The notes beneath the pieces were generated by a model that was not told the DNA's origin, ran no database searches, and saw only the letters and a program-made list of their open reading frames with translations. Below are positions 14,523 to 32,879 of a stretch of 64,000 nt of DNA, piece by piece. A program made the position numbers and the translations under genes. This DNA is from Sphingomonas carotinifaciens. Lineage in GTDB: Bacteria > Pseudomonadota > Alphaproteobacteria > Sphingomonadales > Sphingomonadaceae. How positions within the stretch are numbered: the stretch's first letter is position 1; every line of letters starts with the position of its first letter. Where the stretch lies: assembly GCF_009789535.1 (NCBI RefSeq), contig NZ_WSUT01000006.1, positions 1 through 64,000 of the forward strand, read 5' to 3'.

Positions 14523-14855
14523 ATGAGCTTCGGCCGCCTCGCCCGCACACTCGCTCTGCTCCTGCTGGGCGCGATGCTGTTCGTGCGGATGGGCCCAATG
14601 TGCGAGGCCATCGCGCAGGCTGCTCCGCCTGCGGAGGCGCATGCCGGAATGGCCGATTGCGATCGAGCGCCGCCCACGCCCGTGAAAAAGGCCCCTTCGG
14701 TGGACTGCGTAGGAGCCTGCATCGCAACGGCCCTCGACGTTCACACGTCTCCCGCGCCGCAGCTCGCCGTGCGGACGGATCCGCCCGCACCCGAGCCTCA
14801 TGCCCTTGTTGGTCGCTCGGGCGGTCCTGCACCGCCACCTCCTCGAACCGCCTGA
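14523..14855 (+). CDS. Small exported protein of a copper locus, unknown function
   Basis: The 110-residue protein has a hydrophobic N-terminal segment (RTLALLLLGAMLFVRMG), then a Pro-rich tail with three Cys (CEAIA, DCDRA, DCVGAC region) and several His. It resembles short signal-bearing hypotheticals often found next to copper genes, but no family is certain. It lies 45 bases upstream of the Cys-rich peptide gene and probably shares its transcript. Confidence 0.55.
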   Translation: MSFGRLARTLALLLLGAMLFVRMGPMCEAIAQAAPPAEAHAGMADCDRAPPTPVKKAPSVDCVGACIATALDVHTSPAPQLAVRTDPPAPEPHALVGRSGGPAPPPPRTA

Positions 14856-14900
14856 TCGACGTGGATTCCGATCAATCAGTGCGTTTGAGGAAAATTACAC

Positions 14901-15122
14901 ATGAAGACCATCAAGTTCATCGGCGCGGCTATCGCGCTCGCGCTCGTTCCCGCCACGGCCTTTGCCGCCGCTGACTGCTGCGCGGGGAAGGAGTGCTGCA
15001 AGGATGGCGCCGACTGCTGCAAGGACAAGGACGGCGCGAAGAAGGATTGCTGCGCCGACATGAAGGACATGAAGCACGGCGAGCACGCCGGTCACGACAT
15101 GTCGGGCATGCAGAAGAAGTAA
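14901..15122 (+). CDS. Small exported Cys-rich copper-binding protein
   Basis: This 73-residue protein has a signal peptide (MKTIKFIGAAIALALVPATAFA), then a mature part of about 50 residues with four CC pairs (DCCAGKECC, DCCKDKD, DCCADM) and a Met/His tail ending HAGHDMSGMQ. The tail motif recurs three times in CopB (17480-18685). The layout is that of a periplasmic metallothionein-like metal trap. A GAGGAAAA ribosome-binding site precedes the ATG. A strong terminator follows eight bases after the stop. Confidence 0.75.
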   Translation: MKTIKFIGAAIALALVPATAFAAADCCAGKECCKDGADCCKDKDGAKKDCCADMKDMKHGEHAGHDMSGMQKK

Positions 15123-15129
15123 GCTGGGA

Positions 15130-15155
15130 GGGGAGGCGTTCGCGCCTCCCCTTTT
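15130..15155 (+). terminator. Rho-independent terminator
   Basis: GGGGAGGCG, a TTCG loop and CGCCTCCCC form a nine-base-pair stem followed by TTTT. It ends the 14523-15122 transcript. It touches the stop codon of the convergent DUF411 gene, so it may also serve that one. Confidence 0.85.
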
Positions 15156-15595
15156 CAATGGCGGGCGAACACCCTGCGGCCGCTCGGCCCGAACGCGATC
15201 ACGTCATAGGCCTGGGCCTTCATGCCCGGCATTTCCATGCCCGGTGAGCCCATCGGCATCCCGGCGACCGCGAGGCCGGTGACGCCCTTCGGATGCGTGG
15301 CCAAGGCGCGCTTCATGTCGGCAATCGGAACGTGCCCTTCGAAGGTCATGCCGTCGATAATGGCAGTGTGACAGGAGGCGAGGTCTTGAGGCACGCCGCG
15401 TGCCTTCATGAACGCCGGCCGGTTCGCATCGTCGACGACGCGGACGGCGCGGCCGAACTGCTCCTTCACCTGCTGCGCCCATTTCTCGCAACAGGGGCAA
15501 CCCGGGTCGCGATGCATCAGGACGGGACCCGCGGCGAGAGCCCCCGCAGGGGTAGCGCACGCCAGCGCGGCGGCGAGAAGGCGAAAGCGATCCAT
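15155..15595 (-). CDS. DUF411 periplasmic metal-binding protein
   Basis: The 146-residue protein has a signal peptide (residues 1-22) and the DUF411 core: DPGCPCCEKW (Cys33, 35, 36), VPQDLASCHTAI, GHVPIADMKRAL and GLAVAGMPMGSPGMEMPG. This family accompanies copper resistance genes and is thought to bind Cu(I) with the CPCC motif. The frame is open upstream, but the ATG at 15595 begins the signal peptide. It follows the DUF305 gene by 59 bases on the same strand, and may share its sigma-dependent promoter. Confidence 0.85.
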   Translation of the reverse strand: MDRFRLLAAALACATPAGALAAGPVLMHRDPGCPCCEKWAQQVKEQFGRAVRVVDDANRPAFMKARGVPQDLASCHTAIIDGMTFEGHVPIADMKRALATHPKGVTGLAVAGMPMGSPGMEMPGMKAQAYDVIAFGPSGRRVFARH

Positions 15596-15654: not shown

Positions 15655-16029
15655 TTACTGGGCGCTCTTGCCATGCGCCCGCAGCCAGGCGTTCAACTCG
15701 CCGATCTCGCGGGTCTGCTCTGCGATCGTCTTGGTGGCCATCTGGCGAACCTTGGGGTCCTTGGTCTCGCGAAGCACGATACGCGACATGGCGATGCCGC
15801 CACGGTGGTGCTCGACCATCTTGCGGACCCACGTCTCGGTGGCATCGGCACCCATCGCCGACATCATCTTCTGATGCATGTCCATCTCGGCCTGCGGGTA
15901 CGGGTTCGCCGGCGTCGGCCGCATCATCTGCCCGTGGTTCATGCCGGAATGGTCCATGCCCTGCATCTGGGCGACCGCGGGAGCCGCGCCGAGGGCGGTC
16001 GCGACGGCCATAATCATCATCTTCTTCAT
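15655..16029 (-). CDS. DUF305 exported protein
   Basis: This 124-residue protein has a signal peptide (MKKMMIMAVATALGAAPAVA), a Met/His-rich linker (MDHSGMNHGQMM) and the DUF305 helical core with the pattern MVEHHRGGIAMSR and EIGELNAWL. DUF305 proteins are common in copper loci, and the paired histidines are presumed metal ligands. The ECF-type site at 16068-16093 lies about 40 bases upstream of the ATG. Confidence 0.85.
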   Translation of the reverse strand: MKKMMIMAVATALGAAPAVAQMQGMDHSGMNHGQMMRPTPANPYPQAEMDMHQKMMSAMGADATETWVRKMVEHHRGGIAMSRIVLRETKDPKVRQMATKTIAEQTREIGELNAWLRAHGKSAQ

Positions 16030-16067: not shown

Positions 16068-16093
16068 TACGGGCTCAAACCGATTAGCCCTCA
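16068..16093 (-). promoter_or_regulatory. Putative ECF sigma promoter for DUF305 (and DUF411)
   Basis: On the minus strand TGAGGG (16093-16088), a spacer of 16 bases and CGTA (16071-16068), followed by TCCC. The same two boxes at the same spacing precede the cnrY-like operon, copA, copC and the DUF326 gene. Read directly from the sequence; promoter activity is inferred. Confidence 0.75.
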
Positions 16094-16104
16094 AGCGATG
16101 TTGC

Positions 16105-16704
16105 TCAGCGGATCGGCTGAAGCGTGTTGACGCCGACGCTCTCGTCGGTTTCGGGGGGCGGAGGAGGCACCTGCTTGTCGCGATAGGAGGGGAGGTCGGG
16201 CGCATTGTCGGGCGTGGGGTGCGCCTCAAGCCGGGCGATGTAGCGCTTCATCTGCGCGATCTCGCGGACCTGAGCGTCGATGATCCCGTCCGCGAGTTTC
16301 CGCACCTCGGGGTCTTTGATGTGAGCGCGCTCGCTGGTCATGATCGCGATCGAGTGATGCGGGATCATCGCCTTCATATAAGCAACGTCTCCGACCGTCT
16401 CCTGGCTGCGGACAAGCCACAAGGCACCGGCGAACACCGCGATCGAGGCCGCCACGATGCCGAGATTGGCCCGTCGGTCGGGATACATGCCCCACATGAA
16501 GCCGATCATGATGAGCGCCATCACGGCGCCCATGACGATCGCCATCCACGTCCGGGTCTGACTGTATTCGACATGGGCGAGCGCGTAAGTGTTGAGGTAC
16601 ATGAGCCCGAACATCACGACCGTCGACGTCGCGATCATCGCGGCGAAGCGCCCGTAGCTCATCCCCATACCGCCCTGTTTGGAGCCGGGGTCGTCGTGGT
16701 TCAT
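16105..16704 (-). CDS. DUF305 membrane protein
   Basis: This 199-residue protein has three hydrophobic segments (FAAMIATSTVVMFGLMYLN, MAIVMGAVMALIMIGFMWG, LGIVAASIAVFAGALWLV), then a DUF305 domain with MKAMIPHHSIAIMTSERA and EIAQMKRYIARLE, and a Pro-rich tail. It is the membrane-anchored version of the neighbouring DUF305 protein. The ATG at 16704 follows GGAGAG. The sigma-type site 16741-16766 lies ~40 bases upstream, inside the end of the PepSY gene. Confidence 0.82.
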   Translation of the reverse strand: MNHDDPGSKQGGMGMSYGRFAAMIATSTVVMFGLMYLNTYALAHVEYSQTRTWMAIVMGAVMALIMIGFMWGMYPDRRANLGIVAASIAVFAGALWLVRSQETVGDVAYMKAMIPHHSIAIMTSERAHIKDPEVRKLADGIIDAQVREIAQMKRYIARLEAHPTPDNAPDLPSYRDKQVPPPPPETDESVGVNTLQPIR

Positions 16705-16740
16705 GATGCGCTCTCCTGTGCGGCCCCACCCACTGAAGGA

Positions 16741-16766
16741 TACGCAGCTCTCTAGCGGACCCCTTG
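16741..16766 (-). promoter_or_regulatory. Putative ECF sigma promoter (weaker -35) for membrane DUF305 gene
   Basis: On the minus strand CAAGGG, exactly 16 bases, then CGTATCC. The -10 box matches the other five sites of the copper island; the -35 box matches at AGGG only. The sequence after CGTA (TCCTTCAGTGGGTGGGG) resembles that after the DUF326 promoter (CTCCTCAGTGGGCGGGG). Confidence 0.6.
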
Positions 16767-17483
16767 AGCTTTTCTGCGACGTCGACGGGGCCAGCGCATG
16801 AAGAGCAGGATCGCCCCGGCGACAGCGAACACGAGTCCGCCCGCTGCGAAAGCGTTGAGCCACGGCGTGTTGAACCGCTCGTGCTCGGTCCAATCCATGA
16901 TGTGAAGCCCCCAGAAGAAGTCGTAGAGCCGCCACGTGCCGGTCCGGACCGATGTCAGCCGCCCCGTCTCGGCGCCCACGTAGATGCGGGTCCCGTCGTC
17001 ATCGGCGAAGGAAGCACGCCAGGCGGGGAGGGCACCGCGGTACTCGGTGCTGAGGCGCTCGATCCGCTCGACGACGGGCGCCGAACCAGTTTCGCCGCGA
17101 TACGCCTGCCTTGCGATCAGCGCTGCGGCCGGGCCGTCGACCGGGGGCAGCGGCTTTGCGGTGCGGGCGTCCAGCAAACGCACCTTGCCGTCGCCGAGCT
17201 GGGCTTCGACGATCGGCCGCCCCAGCAGCATCCGGTGCTGGAGCTGACGCACCGGCGCTCCGGCCGATGCGAGAAGGGCAGGGACGGGCGCGAAATCCTG
17301 AGTGGCGATCAGGGCCGGTTCGACGTTCCGGTCGATCCGGTGATCGCCATGCACGGTGTCGATCGGCAGCAGGCTCATGACGAGCCCGCTGGTGAACCAG
17401 ACGATCGCCTGCGCCCCGATCAGGAGCGCAAGCCAGCGGTGAACCTTGCTTGCCCCGACATGGAGGCGGAGCCGCGGGCTCAG
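16752..17483 (-). CDS. PepSY-domain membrane protein, probable CTG start
   Basis: The first ATG (17378) would give only 208 residues and cut off the first membrane helix. Reading upstream in frame gives LHVGASKVHRWLALLIG and AQAIVWFTSGLVMSLLPID, the normal opening of PepSY-TM proteins near copper genes. No ATG, GTG or TTG exists there. The CTG at 17483 overlaps the copB stop as CTGA, and GAGGA lies seven bases before it, so I take CTG as the start (243 residues). A second helix lies near the end (FAAGGLVFAVAGAILLF) before a basic tail. It is third in the copA-copB transcript. Function is unknown; PepSY proteins are often linked to metal reduction or uptake. Confidence 0.7.
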   Translation of the reverse strand: MSPRLRLHVGASKVHRWLALLIGAQAIVWFTSGLVMSLLPIDTVHGDHRIDRNVEPALIATQDFAPVPALLASAGAPVRQLQHRMLLGRPIVEAQLGDGKVRLLDARTAKPLPPVDGPAAALIARQAYRGETGSAPVVERIERLSTEYRGALPAWRASFADDDGTRIYVGAETGRLTSVRTGTWRLYDFFWGLHIMDWTEHERFNTPWLNAFAAGGLVFAVAGAILLFMRWPRRRRRKAQGVR

Positions 17484-18685
17484 AACCAGGTCCTCACGCC
17501 CGCGACGAAGCTGAAGCCGCCCGTATTGTCACCGCGTGCGCGGGTGAAGCGCGCGGTGTCGCCGAACTGCCGCTCCCACGACACGCCGATGTAGGGCGCG
17601 AACTCGCGCCGGCCCTCGTAGCGAAGCCGAAGCCCGGCCTCGAGGTCCGTGAGCCCGGAGCCGGTGCCGGTTTCGGGCACGTCCTGCGCGGAGAAATTGG
17701 CCTCCACCCTAGGCTGGAGCACGAACCAGTTGGTGATGCGCTGGTCGTAATAGCCCTCCGCACGGCCAAGCACGTCGCCCTTGTCGGAGAGGAACAATGC
17801 GCCCTCCACCTCGAACCAACCGGGGGCCAGCCCCTCGATCCCTACCGTCGCGTAGGTGCGCGAGGGGTTGGGCTTGAAGTCGTAGCGAACGCCCGCCTGA
17901 AGGTTCCAGTATGGATCGAGCGCGCGGCTGTAGAGCGCCTGCACCTCGGCCTGTTCGAGCGGCTTGCCGAACGTGCCTTCGCCCTCGCTCTTTAGCGTAA
18001 AGCGATTGATGTCGCCCCCGATCCAGGCCTCGCCATCCCAGCGATAGCCGTCGCCACCCTTGCGAGCCTGATATTCGGCGAGATTGAAGAGGATCTGATA
18101 GACGGTCATTCCGCCATGCTCGCGGCGTAGATCGTTCTCGCGCGAGCTGGCCATGGCGTCCGCGCCCCAGAAACGATCGGCGAGGTGGTCCCCGGCTGGA
18201 GCGGGAGCGGGCTTGTTGCCGGGGGGAAGGTCGGTTCCGACCTTGGCAGCGGGCTGATCGCCGGGCATCGCCATGCCCGGCATCGTGCTCATGTCGTGGC
18301 CGGCATGCGGGTCCTGCCCCGCACCTGTCGATGCTGCCATGCCCGGCATAGCAGACATATCGTGCCCGGCGTGCGGGTTCTGGGTGGGCGCAGCCTGCTG
18401 CTGACCGCTCATATCCATTCCCTGCATCCCGCTCATGTCATGCCCGGCATGAGGGTCGGCAGCCTGCGTCTTCGCCGGTTGCGCGCGACGCGGCGCGGTG
18501 CGTCGGACGGGAGCCTTACGCTTAGTCGCGGACTTGGCCGCGGCTTTCGCCTTCGGCTTGGCGGCCGGCTTTGCCGGCATCGTCATGCCCGGCATGTTGT
18601 GCATGGAATGGTCCATGGTCTGCCCGAATGCGGGTGTCGCAAGGCCGAGCGGCGCCATACCGGCGAGGAGGAGCGACCGGATCAC
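17480..18685 (-). CDS. copB: CopB outer-membrane copper resistance protein
   Basis: The ~401-residue protein starts at GTG 18685, which overlaps the copA stop (GTGA). It has a signal peptide (IRSLLLAGMAPLGLATPAFGQ) and a Lys/Ala/Pro-rich region. Next come three copies of a Met/His block of the form PHAGHDMSxMxGM, then the CopB beta-barrel domain (HGGMTVYQILFNLAEYQ, VQALYSRALDPYWNLQAGVRYDF), ending in the terminal aromatic residue expected of an outer-membrane protein (VRTWF). The Met/His blocks are presumed Cu(I) ligands. It acts with CopA in the outer envelope. Confidence 0.92.
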   Translation of the reverse strand: MIRSLLLAGMAPLGLATPAFGQTMDHSMHNMPGMTMPAKPAAKPKAKAAAKSATKRKAPVRRTAPRRAQPAKTQAADPHAGHDMSGMQGMDMSGQQQAAPTQNPHAGHDMSAMPGMAASTGAGQDPHAGHDMSTMPGMAMPGDQPAAKVGTDLPPGNKPAPAPAGDHLADRFWGADAMASSRENDLRREHGGMTVYQILFNLAEYQARKGGDGYRWDGEAWIGGDINRFTLKSEGEGTFGKPLEQAEVQALYSRALDPYWNLQAGVRYDFKPNPSRTYATVGIEGLAPGWFEVEGALFLSDKGDVLGRAEGYYDQRITNWFVLQPRVEANFSAQDVPETGTGSGLTDLEAGLRLRYEGRREFAPYIGVSWERQFGDTARFTRARGDNTGGFSFVAGVRTWF

Positions 18686-20652
18686 GCCGCGGCCTCCCCG
18701 GCCTTGCGGACCTGGACAACGCGCATCATGCCCGCGTGCATGTGGTAGAGCATGTGGCAGTGGAAGGCCCAGTCGCCTTCCTCGCCGGTCACGTCCCAGC
18801 TCACCGTGCCTCCCGGCTGCACCAGCACCGTATGCTTTCGGGGGGCATAGGCGCCCTTGCCGGTCACCAGGTCGAAGAAGTGGCCGTGGATGTGGATCGG
18901 ATGTCCCATCATCGTGTCGTTGATGAGCGTCACCCGTACCCGCTCGCCGTGAAGCAGCGTGATCGGGTCGGGGTTCTCCGACAGCTTCTCGCCGTCGAAG
19001 CCCCACATATAGCGCTCCATGTTGCCGGTGAGGTGGAGCTTGATCTCCCGCTCCGGTGCGCGTGTGTCCGGGTTGCGGTCGAGCGCCATCAGGTCGCGAT
19101 AGGTGAGAACGCGATGCCCGACATTCTCCAGCCCCTGCCCGGGATCGCCGGTCCGATCGACCGGCATCGGCGAGATGGTCTGCACGCCCGGTCCCTTTTT
19201 AACCTCGGGGGCATTGCTGAAATCGCGCATGGAATGGCTCATGCCGCCCATGTCCATCCCGCCCATCTGATCGCCGTTCATCGCCGGCATCGTGCCGGAG
19301 CCATGGTCCATACCGGCCATGGCGCCGCCCTGAGCCTGGCCGTGGTCCATGCCTGCCATGCCGCCTGCCGCGGTGCCGGCCGCGCCGTGGTTCATTTGGG
19401 AATGATCCATACCCGCCATCGCGCCGGTGCCCGCGCCATGCCCCATCGCAGCATGGTCCATGCCGGACATCGAACCCGCAGCGCCGCCCATGGCGCCATG
19501 ATTCATGCCGCCGTGGTCCATCGTGCCATGATCCATGCCGCCCATGCCCATGTCCTTCATGGTCGCGAGCGGGCGCTTGCGGAGCGGGGGCACCTCGGCC
19601 GCCATGCCCTCGCGCGGAGCGAGCGTCGCGCGGGCCATGCCGGAGCGATCGATGCTCTCACCGACCAGCGTATAGGCGCGCAGGTCGGGCGGGGTGACGA
19701 TCGCGTCATAGGTCTCGGCCGGGCCGAACTGGAACTCGTCGATCTCGACCGGGCGCACGTTCAAGCCGTCGGCCGCGACGATCGTCATCGGCAGGCCCGG
19801 AATGCGGACGTTGAAGGTGGTCATCGACGAGGCGTTGATGAAGCGCAGCCGCACCCGCTCGCCGGGGCGGAATAGCGCGGTCCAATTGTCCTTGGGGCCG
19901 TAGCCGTTGACCAGGTAGGTGTAGACCGAGCCCGTGACGTCGGCGACGTCGGCGGGGTCCATCCGCATCTTGCCCCACTCCAACCGCTCTTTCAGCGACT
20001 GATCCTTGCCGGCGAGAAGCCCGGCCAGGGTCTGGCGCTGGCGGTTGAAGTAGCCCGACTCCTTCTTCAACCGATCGAAGAGGTAGTGCGGGTGGTGGAA
20101 GCTGTGGTCGGACAGCACGATCACGTGCTCCCGGTCGAACTTCACCGGATCGGGGTTCTTCGGGTCGATCAGGATCGGGCCGTAATGCCCCTCCTGCTCC
20201 TGAAGCCCCGAATGGCTATGGTACCAGTAGGTGCCGCTCTGGATGATCGGGAACTCGTAGGTGAACGTCGATCGCGCCGGAATGCCGGGGAAGGCGATCC
20301 CGGGAACCCCGTCCATCTGGAAGGGGAGAAGCAGCCCGTGCCAGTGGATCGAGGTTTCCTCGTCGAGCTCATTGACGACGTGGAGGCGGACGTTCTGCCC
20401 CTCGCGCAAGCGGATGAGCGGAGCGGGCACGGTGCCGTTGATGCCGATGGCGTGGCTCTGCCGCCCGTCGATCATCATCATCTGATGCGCGACCTTGAGC
20501 GTGATGTCCTCGCCCGACACCGTGGGCAACGGCTTGGCGATGCCGGCCGAGACGGGCTGTGCCCATGCCGGCATATAGGCCGACAAGGCGAGGCCGCCGC
20601 CTGCCAGACTGGCACCGCGCAGCACCTGGCGGCGGTCGAGAACGCGCGACAT
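18682..20652 (-). CDS. copA: CopA multicopper oxidase
   Basis: This 656-residue protein opens with a Tat signal (DRRQVLRGASLAGGGLALS). Copper ligands are visible in IHWHGLLLPFQMDGVPG (His103, His105), TYWYHSHSGLQ (His145, His147), HPIHIHGHFF and HCHMLYHMHAGMM. Between the second and third cupredoxin domains lies a ~110-residue region with repeated MDH, GGM and MNHG motifs, longer than usual, probably a Cu(I) store. It oxidises Cu(I) in the periplasm. The gene starts 66 bases from the sigma gene end and has its own sigma-type promoter site. Confidence 0.95.
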   Translation of the reverse strand: MSRVLDRRQVLRGASLAGGGLALSAYMPAWAQPVSAGIAKPLPTVSGEDITLKVAHQMMMIDGRQSHAIGINGTVPAPLIRLREGQNVRLHVVNELDEETSIHWHGLLLPFQMDGVPGIAFPGIPARSTFTYEFPIIQSGTYWYHSHSGLQEQEGHYGPILIDPKNPDPVKFDREHVIVLSDHSFHHPHYLFDRLKKESGYFNRQRQTLAGLLAGKDQSLKERLEWGKMRMDPADVADVTGSVYTYLVNGYGPKDNWTALFRPGERVRLRFINASSMTTFNVRIPGLPMTIVAADGLNVRPVEIDEFQFGPAETYDAIVTPPDLRAYTLVGESIDRSGMARATLAPREGMAAEVPPLRKRPLATMKDMGMGGMDHGTMDHGGMNHGAMGGAAGSMSGMDHAAMGHGAGTGAMAGMDHSQMNHGAAGTAAGGMAGMDHGQAQGGAMAGMDHGSGTMPAMNGDQMGGMDMGGMSHSMRDFSNAPEVKKGPGVQTISPMPVDRTGDPGQGLENVGHRVLTYRDLMALDRNPDTRAPEREIKLHLTGNMERYMWGFDGEKLSENPDPITLLHGERVRVTLINDTMMGHPIHIHGHFFDLVTGKGAYAPRKHTVLVQPGGTVSWDVTGEEGDWAFHCHMLYHMHAGMMRVVQVRKAGEAAA

Positions 20653-20695
20653 GCAAGCTCCTAAGAATGGGGCCGTGAAGGGCCGTCGACCCTTC

Positions 20696-20721
20696 TACGC
20701 GGCCGATCTGTCCAACCCTCA
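20696..20721 (-). promoter_or_regulatory. Putative ECF sigma promoter of copA operon
   Basis: On the minus strand TGAGGG (20721-20716), 16 bases, CGTA (20699-20696), followed by GAAGGGT. Box sequences and spacing are identical to those before copC; the seven bases after CGTA are identical too. The -35 box overlaps the last three bases of the sigma gene. Confidence 0.8.
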
Positions 20722-21288
20722 GCGGTTCCCTAGTTTTTCGAGCAGCCGCGCCCGCGCGCGATAAAGGCGAGTTTCCACCGCCTTCTGGCTGATCCCCAGC
20801 ACCTCGGCCGTTTCGGCCTGGCTCAGCCCTTCGATCGTCCGAAGTACCAGAGGCTCCTTCAGGTTAGCCGGCAGGGTCGAGATGGCGCGCGTCACGCGGT
20901 CGAGTTCCTGCCGATCGCCGGCTGCGTCGTCGATCGGCACCTGTTCGTCGACGATGCTCTGGACCTGTTCGTCGTTCGGCAGCGCGAACGACAGAAACCG
21001 GCGCACGGCACGCTTACGCGCCCAATCGCGGCATTTGTTGACGGCGATGGTCGTTAGCCACGCCTGCATCGATCGGTTGGGGTCGTAGCGCGACAAGGCC
21101 TGATGCGCGGCCACAAACGCTTCCTGCGTCACGTCCAGCGCTTCGTCGGCATCGCCGAGGAAGGCGCGCGAAAGCCGGAACATCGGCTGCCGATAGCGTC
21201 GCACGATCTCGGCGAAAGCGGCTTGTCGGCCGGCGATGCTGAGCGTCGCCAGTTCGCCATCCGACAGCGCGGTCCAATCGAGGCTCAC
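20719..21288 (-). CDS. ECF sigma factor, CnrH-like
   Basis: This 189-residue protein has region 2 near residues 18-90 (FAEIVRRYRQPMFRLSRAFL, DEALDVTQEAFVAAHQAL, WLTTIAVNKCRDWARKRAVRRFL) and region 4 near 125-185 (LPANLKEPLVLRTIEGLSQAETAEVLGISQKAVETRLYRAR). The start overlaps the sensor gene stop (ATGA). Order and coupling (anti-sigma, periplasmic sensor, sigma) reproduce cnrYXH of Cupriavidus. I infer that it recognises TGAGGG-N16-CGTA, which occurs before its own operon and the copper genes around it. Confidence 0.88.
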   Translation of the reverse strand: MSLDWTALSDGELATLSIAGRQAAFAEIVRRYRQPMFRLSRAFLGDADEALDVTQEAFVAAHQALSRYDPNRSMQAWLTTIAVNKCRDWARKRAVRRFLSFALPNDEQVQSIVDEQVPIDDAAGDRQELDRVTRAISTLPANLKEPLVLRTIEGLSQAETAEVLGISQKAVETRLYRARARLLEKLGNR

Positions 21289-21725
21289 CCCTGGCCGTCG
21301 GTGAGCGCCTTCACCACCGCGTCATCGAATTGAGAGGTCTGATCGGGCCGGAGAAGCTGACGCATGGCGAAGATGTGCGCCAGCGTCGCCTTCTGCAGCT
21401 CGCCCATCGCGGCATGGCTCTGGTCGACCGCGGCGGCCACTCGCGGACCATTGCCGTGCTCGGCCTCGATCGCCTCGGCAAGGCGGGCATTGGCGGCACG
21501 CATCTCCAGCTCGAGGGCGCGGCGTTGCACCGCGAACCGGTCTTCGAGCACCTTCAATCGGACCTGCTGGTCGCCATCGAGCGCGAGCTTGTGGTGCAGC
21601 ACCTCGTGGAGCGCCGCACCGGGTTGCTTGGGCTGCGGCAGCAGCGCGCGCCCGATAAAGACACCACCAATCGCTGCCAGGAAGGCGAGCAAGGCGCACA
21701 GGACAACCCGCTTGGTCGAGGTCAT
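21285..21725 (-). CDS. CnrX-like periplasmic metal sensor
   Basis: This 146-residue protein has an N-terminal membrane anchor (VVLCALLAFLAAIGGVFIG) and a helical periplasmic domain. The residues His40, His44, Glu61, His117 and Met121 lie at the same relative positions as the metal ligands of CnrX (His42, His46, Glu63, His119, Met123), all shifted by two. It should bind a metal in the periplasm and relieve the anti-sigma factor. It overlaps both neighbours by four bases. The metal is Ni/Co in CnrX; the regulon here is copper, so specificity may differ. Confidence 0.82.
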   Translation of the reverse strand: MTSTKRVVLCALLAFLAAIGGVFIGRALLPQPKQPGAALHEVLHHKLALDGDQQVRLKVLEDRFAVQRRALELEMRAANARLAEAIEAEHGNGPRVAAAVDQSHAAMGELQKATLAHIFAMRQLLRPDQTSQFDDAVVKALTDGQG

Positions 21726-21994
21726 GGCTCGCCGATCAGCAACGCGGAAGGAGCGAGGGGGGAGGCTCCGCCGAGCGGCGCGAGCGAGACGGCAGGGCTT
21801 GCCGTCGCGGGCAGCTCGGCACCGACGATCCCGACACCGAGCGCCGCGGCGGTTATCACACCGATCCCGAGCCCGGCTCCGCGCACGGCGGGGCGGCTGC
21901 CGATCCGTCTGAGGACTTGGTCCTCGATACCCTCCAAAGCGGCCGGGGCGGGTGCGCCCGCTAGTCGCGCCAATGCTCTGTCTAGATCGTCCAT
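21722..21994 (-). CDS. CnrY-like small anti-sigma factor
   Basis: The ~90-residue protein has a short cytoplasmic part (MDDLDRALARLAGAPAPAALEGIEDQVLRRI), one membrane segment (GAGLGIGVITAAALGVGIVG) and a short periplasmic tail. This is the plan of CnrY, which sequesters its sigma factor with an N-terminal helix. I chose ATG 21994, eight bases after GGAG; a GTG at 22003 is possible. First gene of the sensor/sigma operon and the target of the promoter site 22024-22049. Confidence 0.72.
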   Translation of the reverse strand: MDDLDRALARLAGAPAPAALEGIEDQVLRRIGSRPAVRGAGLGIGVITAAALGVGIVGAELPATASPAVSLAPLGGASPLAPSALLIGEP

Positions 21995-22023
21995 GCTTTC
22001 CACTCCACCCCTCTATCATCGGA

Positions 22024-22049
22024 TACGCATCGCTGCCCATCATCCCTCA
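22024..22049 (-). promoter_or_regulatory. Putative ECF sigma promoter of the cnrYXH-like operon
   Basis: On the minus strand TGAGGG (22049-22044), 16 bases, CGTA (22027-22024), followed by TCCGAT. This implies autoregulation. Its -35 box faces the -35 box of copC across eight bases, giving CCCTCA-N8-TGAGGG. Confidence 0.8.
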
Positions 22050-22057
22050 ACCGCCGG

Positions 22058-22083
22058 TGAGGGGTCGGGCAGCGCGCCGCGTA
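22058..22083 (+). promoter_or_regulatory. Putative ECF sigma promoter of copCD
   Basis: TGAGGG (22058-22063), 16 bases, CGTA (22080-22083), then GAAGGGT, about 31 bases before the copC ATG. Confidence 0.8.
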
Positions 22084-22114
22084 GAAGGGTGCACGAACCT
22101 CGTCGGAGTACCCC

Positions 22115-22486
22115 ATGCGTAGTCTCGCCCTTCCTGCCGCCCTCACTCTCCTGAGCCTCGCCAGTGCGGCGCAGGCTCACCCGAAGCTCGTTGTGGCCTC
22201 ACCCGCGCCCAACGCGACCGTTGCCAAGCCCGCGCGTGTCGCTTTGCAGTTCAGCGAGAGGCTGATGCCGAAATTCTCCGGTGCGGACTTGATGATGACG
22301 GGCCATGGCGGCACCACGCACCCACCGATGAAGGTTGCAACCACCACCCAGGTTGCACCCGATGGCCGAACGCTGGTCGTGGTGCCCAAGTCGCCGCTCG
22401 GCGCGGGCCGCTACAGCGTCGCATGGCACGTCGTCTCGGCCGACACGCATCGGGTGTCGGGCAACTTCGCCTTCGCGGTGAAGTAA
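22115..22486 (+). CDS. copC: CopC periplasmic copper-binding protein
   Basis: The 123-residue protein has a signal peptide ending AQA, so that the mature protein would start with His (HPKLVVASP), the N-terminal Cu(II) ligand of CopC. The later DTHRVSG supplies the conserved Asp and His ligands. The beta-barrel shows VALQFSERLMPKFSGADL and GAGRYSVAWHVVSADTH. It carries copper to CopD, whose gene starts one base after the copC stop. Confidence 0.93.
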   Translation: MRSLALPAALTLLSLASAAQAHPKLVVASPAPNATVAKPARVALQFSERLMPKFSGADLMMTGHGGTTHPPMKVATTTQVAPDGRTLVVVPKSPLGAGRYSVAWHVVSADTHRVSGNFAFAVK

Positions 22487-22487
22487 G

Positions 22488-23417
22488 GTGGATGCCGACT
22501 GGCCGTTGATCGGGGTCCGCTTCGCGCTTTATGCGACGTTGAGCGGGCTGTTCGGCCTGTCGGCGTTCAGCCTCTACGGGCTCAAGGCCGGGGAGCGCGC
22601 AGACGCACTCGCCTTGCGCCCTTGGCTGGTGGGGACCGGGCTGCTCGGCCTTCTGTTTTCAGGCATTGCGCTCGTCCTGCTCGCCGCGGCAATGGCTGGA
22701 GCGCCGCCGTGGCCGATCGATCGGGAAGCGATCGGAATGCTGATCACCGGCTCCGCGACGGGCACGGCGTGGGAAGCGCGCATGGTCGCGCTGATTGTGG
22801 CCGTGATCGCCGCGCTGATCGCGGCAGGACGTACCGCGCCGCTCGGCATGGTGGCGCTCGCGGCGGGCATTGCGCTCGCGACGCTCGCCTGGACAGGCCA
22901 TGGCGCGATGGATGAGGGCGCGACGGGCTGGGTCCATCTGCTGGCCGATATTCTGCATCTGTTGGCGGCCGGAGCCTGGGTCGGCGCACTGCTCGGGTTG
23001 ACGCTGCTCGTGGTGCGACCGGCAGTTCGCGTCGACGTCGCGCATCTCAGACTGACCCACCGGGCGTTGCACGGCTTCGGTCTGGTCGGCACGCTCGTGG
23101 TCGGCACGATCGTTGTGACGGGCCTGGTCAATGGCTGGCTGCTGGTCGGTGCCGGCAATTTACCGAGACTTCTGACCACCCTTTACGGCCAGCTCCTCCT
23201 CGCCAAGCTGGTACTGTTCGGCGCGATGCTGGGGCTGGCCTCCCTCAATCGTTTCCGGCTGACGCCGGTTTTCGAGCGCTCGGTTGCCGCGGGCGATCAT
23301 CGGGCCGCGCTTGGTGCTCTGTGGCGCAGCCTCGCGATCGAGGCGAGCTGTGCCGTCACGATCCTGGCGCTGGTCGCCTGGCTGGGGATGCTCGAGCCCC
23401 CCGCAACGGCGATGTGA
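22488..23417 (+). CDS. copD: CopD inner-membrane copper protein
   Basis: The 309-residue protein has about eight hydrophobic segments and the CopD features: ATLAWTGHGAMDEGATGWVHLLADILHLLAAGAWVGALLG (conserved His residues in membrane helices) and FGLVGTLVVGTIVVTGLVNGWLLVG. The start is GTG, one base after copC, so the two are coupled. With CopC it is thought to move copper across the inner membrane. Confidence 0.9.
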   Translation: MDADWPLIGVRFALYATLSGLFGLSAFSLYGLKAGERADALALRPWLVGTGLLGLLFSGIALVLLAAAMAGAPPWPIDREAIGMLITGSATGTAWEARMVALIVAVIAALIAAGRTAPLGMVALAAGIALATLAWTGHGAMDEGATGWVHLLADILHLLAAGAWVGALLGLTLLVVRPAVRVDVAHLRLTHRALHGFGLVGTLVVGTIVVTGLVNGWLLVGAGNLPRLLTTLYGQLLLAKLVLFGAMLGLASLNRFRLTPVFERSVAAGDHRAALGALWRSLAIEASCAVTILALVAWLGMLEPPATAM

Positions 23418-23453
23418 GGAGCGGGCGGCAGATCGCCACCCGCCCGTCACCGA

Positions 23454-23789
23454 TCAGGCGGCCATCTTCTCGCATGCGTCGGCACAACGCTCGCACGCGG
23501 CGACGCACTCTTCCATGCCGTCGAGCCCCCGGCAGCTCTCCGCGCAAGCCCGGCAGATCTGAGCGCAGATGCCGCATACGACCTTATGCTGGTCGGACCC
23601 GCGGGCCATGAAGTCGAGTGAGGTGGCGCAAATCTGCGCGCAGTCGAGCATGATCTTGATGTGGTCGGGCGCGGCATGTGCGCCGCCCACCTGAAGGCAA
23701 TGCTGCGTGGTCATCGAAAGGCAGGTGACGTGACAGTGGTGACAGGCGTCCATGCAAGCCTGCATCTCCGCGCTCATCTGATGGTGCAT
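23454..23789 (-). CDS. Four-helix copper-storage protein (DUF326/Csp-like)
   Basis: This 111-residue protein has no signal peptide and 16 Cys residues spaced along helices as CxxxC and CxxC (MDACHHCHVTC, CGICAQICRACAESC, CVAACERCADAC). This matches DUF326 and the cytosolic Csp3-type copper-storage proteins, which bind many Cu(I) inside a four-helix bundle. It would buffer cytoplasmic Cu(I). The promoter site at 23827-23852 lies ~38 bases upstream. Confidence 0.85.
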   Translation of the reverse strand: MHHQMSAEMQACMDACHHCHVTCLSMTTQHCLQVGGAHAAPDHIKIMLDCAQICATSLDFMARGSDQHKVVCGICAQICRACAESCRGLDGMEECVAACERCADACEKMAA

Positions 23790-23826
23790 CGGTCATTCTC
23801 CGCGTGAGCCCCCGCCCACTGAGGAG

Positions 23827-23852
23827 TACGCACGGCGCCGGCTCGTCCCTCA
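23827..23852 (-). promoter_or_regulatory. Putative ECF sigma promoter of the DUF326 gene
   Basis: On the minus strand TGAGGG (23852-23847), 16 bases, CGTA (23830-23827), then CTCCTCAGTGGG. Matches the other copper-island sites. Confidence 0.78.
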
Positions 23853-31716: not shown

Positions 31717-32379
31717 TTAGCGAACGCCATGTAACGGCTGCCTGTAAGTGGAAGGGGCAGGCGTGGAAGCGTATCGCAGTTCGGCCCGCGCCTGTCGCAT
31801 GATCTGGAATCCACCCGACAGACCGAGCACGGCCATCAACGCGGCCACCACTAGATCGGGCCACGCGCTGTTCAGCCCGAAGACGCCGCCTGCGGCCAGC
31901 ACCACGGCGACATTGCCGATCGCATCGTTGCGCGAGCAGATCCACACCGAACGCATGTTCGCGTCCCCGCTGCGGAAGCGATACAGCATCACCGCGACCA
32001 CGGCATTCGCGATCAGCGCCGCAATCCCCACGACGCCTATGACCTCGGCATGGGGCACAGCGCCGTGGAGCGCACCCCACCCCGCCGCGAGCAGAACATA
32101 GAGCCCGAGCAGGGCAAGCGTCGCTCCCTTCAGCATCGCTGCGCGCGCGCGCCAGGCTATCGCCATTCCGGCGACACCAAGGCTGATGGCGTAATTGGCG
32201 GCGTCACCGAAGAAGTCGAGCGCGTCGGCCTGGAGCGCTTTCGACCCGCCCGTGATCCCTGCGACGATCTCGATTGCGAACATACCGCCATTGATCGCGA
32301 GCGCGATCCACAGCGCGCGCCGCCACTTCGGGTCGTTGAGGGTGCCCGCCTTATCAGACGCGCAGCTCGTGCAGGCCAT
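31717..32379 (-). CDS. Cation transporter of the CDF type with Cys-rich N-terminus
   Basis: The 220-residue protein opens MACTSCASDKAG and has five to six membrane helices. Acidic site motifs are ALQADALDFFGDAANYAISL and WICSRNDAIGNVAVVLA. No C-terminal cytoplasmic domain is present. It is the first gene of the Czc operon, directly after the MerR-type operator. The N-terminal cysteines may bind the incoming metal. Confidence 0.85.
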   Translation of the reverse strand: MACTSCASDKAGTLNDPKWRRALWIALAINGGMFAIEIVAGITGGSKALQADALDFFGDAANYAISLGVAGMAIAWRARAAMLKGATLALLGLYVLLAAGWGALHGAVPHAEVIGVVGIAALIANAVVAVMLYRFRSGDANMRSVWICSRNDAIGNVAVVLAAGGVFGLNSAWPDLVVAALMAVLGLSGGFQIMRQARAELRYASTPAPSTYRQPLHGVR

Positions 32380-32410
32380 TTCGCCACCTCGATAGAATCG
32401 ATCTGGCAGC

Positions 32411-32442
32411 CTATATGCACCCTCTAGTCGCTAGAGGGTCAA
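32411..32442 (-). promoter_or_regulatory. MerR-type operator/promoter of the Czc operon
   Basis: A perfect dyad ACCCTCTAG-TCG-CTAGAGGGT at 32419-32439 lies between -35 TTGACC (32442-32437) and -10 ATATAG (32416-32411) on the minus strand. The 20-base spacer is the overlong spacing needed by ZntR/CadR/PbrR regulators, and the dyad resembles known CadR/PbrR operators. It overlaps the region just upstream of the merR start. Confidence 0.85.
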
Positions 32443-32447
32443 GCACT

Positions 32448-32879
32448 GTGTCTGAGAAACTGACGATCGGGAAGCTGGCCTCGGCGACGGGCACAAAGGT
32501 CGAGACGATCCGCTATTACGAGCAGATCGGCTTGCTGCCGGCACCAGCGCGGTCGGCCGGAAATTACCGGACCTACGAGGGCGAGCATCTGCGGCGCCTG
32601 TCCTTCATCCGTCGGGCGCGCGATCTCGGCTTCTCGATCGACCAGGTCCGGGAGTTGATGGCGCTCGCCGATCGTCGCGAACAATCCTGCATGGCCGTGG
32701 ACGTGATCGCCAACCAACATCGGGATGCGATCACGCGGAAGATCGCCGACCTGACGGCGCTCGCGGGCGAGCTGGACGTGCTGATCGACTCCTGTAGCCG
32801 CAACACCGTGGCCGACTGCAGGATCATCGAAGCCTTGGGTCCCAGCGCGGAGGTCGAGGAGTTCCCGGTGGCTCGCTAG
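32448..32879 (+). CDS. MerR-family metal regulator (CadR/ZntR/PbrR type)
   Basis: From GTG 32448 the protein has 143 residues: winged helix (LTIGKLASATGTKVETIRYYEQIGLLP), NYRTYEGEHLRRLSFIRRARDLGFSIDQVREL, then a dimerisation helix and metal-binding cysteines Cys81, Cys116 and Cys124, which match the positions in ZntR and CadR. An upstream ATG at 32415 lies inside the promoter, so GTG is favoured. It should activate the divergent Czc operon on binding Zn, Cd or Pb. Confidence 0.88.
   Translation: MSEKLTIGKLASATGTKVETIRYYEQIGLLPAPARSAGNYRTYEGEHLRRLSFIRRARDLGFSIDQVRELMALADRREQSCMAVDVIANQHRDAITRKIADLTALAGELDVLIDSCSRNTVADCRIIEALGPSAEVEEFPVAR

Follow-up and report, generated by a model that had tools for sequence, protein, structure and literature searches.

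A CnrYXH-like sigma factor switch is probably wired to copper detoxification genes in Sphingomonadaceae

The first 64 kb of an 80,237-bp contig (C6) of Sphingomonas carotinifaciens, analysed here as a whole and referred to as the window, belong to a genome of 4.09 Mb in 7 contigs and contain a copper island in which genes for an anti-sigma candidate, a CnrX-type sensor and a CnrH-type extracytoplasmic function (ECF) sigma factor adjoin copA-copB and copCD. The island probably represents a CnrYXH-like switch wired to copper detoxification, of a kind common in Sphingomonadaceae. In the proposed mechanism, a membrane anti-sigma/sensor pair would keep the sigma factor inactive; binding of a metal, most likely periplasmic copper, to the sensor's CnrX ligand set would release it. 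RNA polymerase carrying this sigma factor would then read TGAGGG-N16-CGTA before the sigma factor's own operon, copA-copB, copCD, a DUF326 gene and two DUF305 units, and regulator and detoxification genes would rise together. Promoter recognition by the local sigma factor is very likely judging from the sequence; we infer that metal releases it, and the target genes point to copper as the signal. An earlier note on this DNA had proposed that the copper genes form a self-contained regulon governed by a CnrH-type ECF sigma factor, and that proposal is supported because the sites track the sigma gene, recur at operon heads, vary coherently within loci and share their boxes with the cnr promoters.

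Exact matches to TGAGGG-N16-CGTA number five in the window (Table 1), against a mean of 0.04 and a largest value of 1 in 100 dinucleotide shuffles. An exact scan recovered all five sites listed in the earlier note, together with its weaker CAAGGG-N16-CGTA site on the minus strand, and they stand, as it had described, shortly before copper-island genes in the right orientation (20–43 nt). Distances from CGTA to the start codon were 38 bases for the periplasmic DUF305 gene (DUF305a), 43 for copA, 31 for copC, 37 for the DUF326 gene and 36 for the membrane DUF305 gene; for the anti-sigma gene the distance was 20 bases to a GTG, or 29 if ATG 21994 is the start. The stop codon of the sigma gene (20719-20721) forms the first three bases of the copA -35 box, a position that recurs in many relatives. 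With up to two mismatches allowed, the window was at chance (46 found, 46.1 expected), and therefore only the near-exact motif is informative there. The whole genome held six exact matches, comprising the five island sites and one at C5:1132810, which was set aside as lying inside a repeated GGGGAGAGGGATTGAGGG element.

Across L007-L086, the 80 loci best matching the sigma locus (1,522,035 bases), the TGAGGG and CGTA boxes occurred 296 times at a spacer of 16, and each of the other 17 spacers between 8 and 25 gave 0–3 occurrences. The sequence between the boxes is nearly free, with 136 distinct spacers among 294 fully flanked sites, and further base preferences were seen for T second after the -35 box (77%) and G directly before CGTA (84%). 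Of the -35 variants tried, CAAGGG (90), CGAGGG (45) and TAAGGG (13) were the most frequent; -10 variants gave 0–6 matches each. When positions were scored with YRAGGG-N16-CGTA, a site preceded the operon heads copA (77/77), copC (63/65), the anti-sigma gene (71/72) and the DUF326 gene (38/38), as well as DUF305a (26/28) and the membrane DUF305 gene, DUF305b (23/38), and DUF411 in 1 of 19 cases. No site was found before the internal genes copB (0/67), copD (0/65), the membrane open reading frame (0/60), the sensor (0/80) and sigma (0/80), or before the linked czcA (0/22), czcB (0/11) and czcD (0/13). The sites point towards the gene at narrow median distances of 20–44 nt. Of 444 relaxed sites, 101 (52 exact ones included) did not stand before a gene of a type present in the window. 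Several of these precede a gene for a heavy-metal P-type ATPase, a glutaredoxin/MauE protein, DUF4396, DUF411, a pyridine-nucleotide oxidoreductase or an acyltransferase (Pfam identities of ten hand-picked proteins); others had no convincing open reading frame or lay inside genes. In one near-identical clade (L042-L052, near 10024, minus strand) an exact site overlaps the start of the sigma gene in antisense orientation, either by chance or as an antisense promoter.

The same layout was kept in a further set of 40 loci from 37 family genomes, eight of which were chosen for a genome with at most one site, at sigma identities of 37–59% (32% in L167). The exact pattern occurred here 94 times at N16 and 0–2 times at other spacers from 10 to 22. 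In 32 of the 40 loci copA adjoins the sigma gene, and a YRAGGG site lay in the gap in 28 by script and in 2 more, the last two gaps having one-base variants at N16; a site before the anti-sigma gene was scored by script in 30/40. In nine additional loci, seven of them outside the family, the boxes vary in concert. L246 has CGAGGG at its three N16 sites, L248 has GGAGGG at three sites and L251 has CGAGGG at four of five N16 sites; L250 uses N17 at its two sigma-proximal sites, with one N16 match further off, and L253, a copper locus, has N17 at five sites and N15 at two matches, with N16 absent. Among 68 representatives with 182 sites, agreement within a locus was 0.961 for the spacer (0.896 when shuffled) and 0.728 for the first -35 base (0.584 when shuffled), both values lying above 5000/5000 shuffles of a kind that ignores kinship between loci. 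Such agreement is expected if each sigma factor selects its own sites.

Site number also followed the sigma gene across 199 family genomes, of which 84 were sigma-positive (E <= 1e-20) and 115 were not. Exact sites averaged 4.69 per genome with the sigma gene and 1.06 without it, against 1.89 and 1.69 for reversed-control sites, and at least three exact sites were present in 70/84 sigma-positive and 14/115 sigma-negative genomes. In at least one of the sigma-positive genomes, G008, the match comes from a different ECF.

The window sigma factor is of the CnrH kind and a candidate member of ECF20, the group label of CnrH-like sigmas. Its best PDB match was 4cxf, CnrH (E 4.9e-28), with 40% identity to CnrH over 172 amino acids. 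In the tree CnrH pairs at 100/99 with L252, a locus of another class, and falls outside the sphingomonad sigmas, though that part of the tree carries a long-branch warning; L252 lies beside czc-type efflux genes and has the N17 form twice. The closest matches of the window sensor were NccX and CnrX. The five CnrX ligands, which we take to be H42, H46, E63, H119 and M123, were kept in 118/118 sensor rows. These rows comprise the window together with 117 of 120 loci; in the three loci left out the gene is lacking or cut. Beside the ligands, position 47 is His in 70/118 and position 122 Ala in 104/118, where CnrX has Glu at both. The CnrH-type sigma factor, the sensor and the site before their own operon, which would provide autoregulation, are as the earlier note had them, and its anti-sigma candidate resembles CnrY only in place, in size and in its last residues.

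On pMOL28 of Cupriavidus metallidurans, CAAGGG-N17-CGTA and CGAGGG-N17-CGTA stand before cnrY and cnrC and are the only YRAGGG-N17-CGTA matches in the 49 kb of the plasmid read. Nickel-induced cnr expression is reported to depend on CnrH, with starts 24 and 25 nt upstream of the genes (PMC9045368). By our own count this leaves 8 nt after CGTA, and by analogy transcription starts in the window should lie about 9 nt after CGTA. The nickel/cobalt system CnrYXH has the same order of anti-sigma, sensor and sigma genes as the window, and shares with it the sensor ligands, a sigma factor of the CnrH kind and the boxes CRAGGG and CGTA before the regulator and the next operon. It differs in its 17-base spacer, N17 being found in the relatives L250, L252 and L253, and in its targets, which are the CnrCBA efflux pump, whereas the next operon in the window is copA-copB and not efflux genes.

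Several observations weigh against a copper regulon of this kind. Many of the 80 loci are near-copies, the 294 fully flanked sites reducing to 168 distinct 68-mers. Many random matches unlinked to metal genes, which the earlier note had named as refuting its reading, were not seen with the exact pattern (one extra match, in the repeat) but were seen with the loose YRAGGG-N16-CGTA, which was at background in the genome, with 14 matches (6 in the island, 8 elsewhere) against 23 for the reversed control; because the control exceeds the matches, the loose form alone proves nothing. The anti-sigma candidate could not be aligned with CnrY (BLASTP E 0.077 over the last 20 residues only; hhalign probability 0.3), and the spacer of 16 is off by one from the 17 of both cnr promoters. 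The sensor ligands are identical to those of a nickel/cobalt sensor. Finally, 14/115 genomes without the sigma gene still carry at least three sites, and 8/84 sigma-positive genomes have at most one exact site.

Among the neighbourhoods of these eight low-site genomes, seven had copper genes with a site or variant and the eighth, L167, had another ECF and was without copper genes. The variants include TGAGTG-N16-CGTA before the anti-sigma gene and copA and TCAGGG-N16-CGTA before copC in L168, and TGAGGC-N16-CGTA before copA in L173, and sites were present in the gap in L160 and L177. Site positions were mapped in two of the 14 sigma-negative genomes with three or more sites, G040 and G153. The sigma-negative G040 has a divergent pair of sites between copC and an anti-sigma-like frame, with seven other sites scattered; a sensor search found no match in this genome, and the locus may be a remnant after loss of sensor and sigma. 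The pair lies on contig C31 of G040 near 10.6 kb, where copCD and the anti-sigma-like frame were recorded as L213 / L227. G153, also sigma-negative, has nine scattered sites, and the sensor search gave no match in the sigma-negative G037, G120, G125, G150 and G185. Separately, TGAGGG-N16-CGTA with an almost fixed spacer, nATTGCCTTTGAATTT, recurs in G060, G130, G054, G102, G006, G162 and G176, in some genomes roughly 10–20 kb from the sigma gene; a spacer so constant in sequence points to a conserved gene or to another element.

A circuit with the same sigma factor and promoters could have a sensor that answers chiefly to nickel/cobalt or to several metals, the copper genes being induced by general metal stress. 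The complete retention of the nickel and cobalt ligands speaks for such a sensor, as does the report that CnrX senses Ni and Co through Met123 (PMC7689651), but the targets are copper genes, the linked czc genes are without sites, the residues flanking the ligands are unlike those of CnrX, and copper itself is reported to upregulate the whole cnr cluster in C. metallidurans (PMC7563307). We regard this reading as unlikely. That the sites are promoters read by another sigma factor, the local one serving other targets, could be argued from the purely sequence-based evidence for recognition and from the sigma-negative genomes with three or more sites. It appears highly improbable given that the number of sites goes with the presence of the sigma gene, loci are consistent in their box and spacer variants, a site stands before the sigma factor's own operon and CnrH promoters have the same boxes. 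G040, alone among such genomes in having a pair of sites at copper genes, has an anti-sigma-like frame but gave no sensor match, which fits a loss of the system.

A common motif ahead of several operons could in principle also serve as the operator of another regulator, a repressor or an activator of the MerR or response regulator type for instance, and not as a sigma factor promoter. This idea is barely credible for a motif that is not palindromic and consists of two half-sites across a spacer fixed in length and highly diverse in sequence, always facing the gene within a narrow range of distance. Nor did a CueR or CopS model pass in the genome (best scores of 116 bits against a cut-off of 147 and 172 bits against 293), although both cut-offs are strict, each being passed in only 1/14 control genomes; this bears only in part on the earlier note's wording that the regulon is under a CnrH-type sigma factor rather than CueR or CopRS. 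The MerR gene of the window was rejected as CueR: it falls short of the cut-off, and its neighbour is a cation-efflux gene, the pair having an inverted repeat of its own. The cation-efflux and MerR-family genes stand back to back at 31717-32879, with the inverted repeat ACCCTCTAG-TCG-CTAGAGGGT at 32419-32439, and look like a separate zinc/cadmium-type unit.

On the minus strand the island runs from the anti-sigma candidate through the CnrX-type sensor, ECF sigma factor, copA, copB, membrane open reading frame, membrane DUF305 and periplasmic DUF305 to DUF411 (Table 1). On the plus strand copCD is read in the opposite direction, starting from a region that it shares with the anti-sigma gene; the DUF326 gene lies further out. 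The anti-sigma and sensor genes overlap by 4 bases, as do the sensor and sigma genes. ATG 21994 is probably the anti-sigma start, in preference to the GTG, because AGGGGTGGAG precedes it and it agrees with the starts of relatives. From the spacing, the DUF411 gene is probably in the same operon as the periplasmic DUF305 gene. A gene for a small secreted Cys-rich peptide (14901-15122) adjoins the island without a TGAGGG-type site; in L176 a Cys/His-rich peptide (14634-14921) is preceded by such a site.

Table 1. Genes of the copper island and promoter-like sites in the window
Feature	Position	Strand	Remarks
DUF411 protein	15155..15595	-	PF04214
Periplasmic DUF305 protein (DUF305a)	15655..16029	-	PF03713; CopM model NF049983 below cut-off
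TGAGGG-N16-CGTA before periplasmic DUF305 gene	16068..16093	-	exact match
Membrane DUF305 protein	16105..16704	-	PF03713; start taken as ATG 16704, longer frame also in open reading frame list
CAAGGG-N16-CGTA (weaker) before membrane DUF305 gene	16741..16766	-	variant match
Membrane open reading frame after copB	16752..17378	-	family unassigned; no Pfam match; kept beside copB in relatives
copB	17480..18688	-	PF05275; start near 18685; without preceding site
copA, CopA-type multicopper oxidase	18682..20652	-	TIGR01480 over cut-off
TGAGGG-N16-CGTA before copA	20696..20721	-	exact match
CnrH-type ECF sigma factor	20719..21288	-	189 amino acids, GTG start; Pfam, structure match, tree
CnrX-type periplasmic metal sensor	21285..21725	-	PF13801 Metal_resist; ligands H/H/E/H/M kept
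Anti-sigma candidate	21722..22003	-	93 amino acids from GTG or 90 from ATG 21994; one hydrophobic stretch; C-terminus SALLIGEP; no Pfam match
TGAGGG-N16-CGTA before anti-sigma/sensor/sigma operon	22024..22049	-	exact match
TGAGGG-N16-CGTA before copCD	22058..22083	+	exact match; divergent from anti-sigma site
copC	22115..22486	+	NF033814 over cut-off
copD	22488..23417	+	NF033808 over cut-off
Cys/His-rich DUF326 protein, copper-storage-like	23454..23789	-	weak PF03860; Csp1 model TIGR04401 far below cut-off
TGAGGG-N16-CGTA before DUF326 gene	23827..23852	-	exact match

Close named matches to the window sigma factor were nearly all Sphingomonas records. At E <= 1e-25 the sigma factor was found in 5/289 class genomes, two of them from the genus of the window, and at E <= 1e-10 the sensor was found in 12/299 phylum genomes, five of these outside the family. 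In the sampled genomes the system is common in Sphingomonadaceae and thin elsewhere. A scan of viral contigs found no relative. Sphingomonad-type loci also appear under other genus names, namely L007 and L074 (Arthrobacter sp. TPD3018), L063 (a Mesorhizobium metagenome-assembled genome) and L075 (Microvirga sp. SRT01), the sigma factor of L007 being almost identical to that of the window; these are probably mislabelled or mixed records, or recent transfers.

There is about an even chance that much of Sphingomonadaceae senses periplasmic copper by a CnrX-type sensor with the exact nickel/cobalt ligands and has a CnrH-type sigma factor in charge of its main copper regulon. If so, one signalling module has been fitted to different metals by changes around the ligand site, and promoter boxes and spacer have co-evolved with each local sigma factor. 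Accounts of bacterial copper control mostly centre on one- and two-component regulators, and a CnrYXH-like circuit that is conserved and governs an entire copper regulon would be another route, giving the sphingomonads a clear candidate for their main copper switch. The choice of metal by CnrX-family sensors with the same five ligands becomes testable, and natural sigma factors with matching 16- or 17-base promoters are useful for asking how ECF sigmas fix spacing.

Among the open-access papers searched, no title or abstract listed describes a CnrH-type sigma factor over copper genes; an earlier remark on copper-linked members is possible. A 2023 survey names CorE as the copper ECF sigma factor (PMC10141476). 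In Myxococcus xanthus this copper-responsive protein drives a multicopper oxidase and a copper ATPase, and copper is described as sensed by its own Cys-rich C-terminal domain, with no anti-sigma factor found according to these sources (PMC10141476, PMC3107203). The window sigma factor, in contrast, has 189 amino acids with the region 4 match ending at 182, a single Cys and no Cys-rich extension. SigF-NrsF of Caulobacter crescentus is an alphaproteobacterial copper-induced ECF system whose mutant is copper-sensitive; its reported regulon comprises DUF692/DUF2282 and MrsPQ-like genes and not copABCD, and its description mentions no CnrX-type sensor (PMC8224329). SigAb of Acinetobacter baumannii is likewise a copper-induced ECF sigma factor with anti-sigma genes in its operon, but these are placed downstream, and its direct regulon is reported to be small, with copper resistance genes as indirect targets (PMC12153292).

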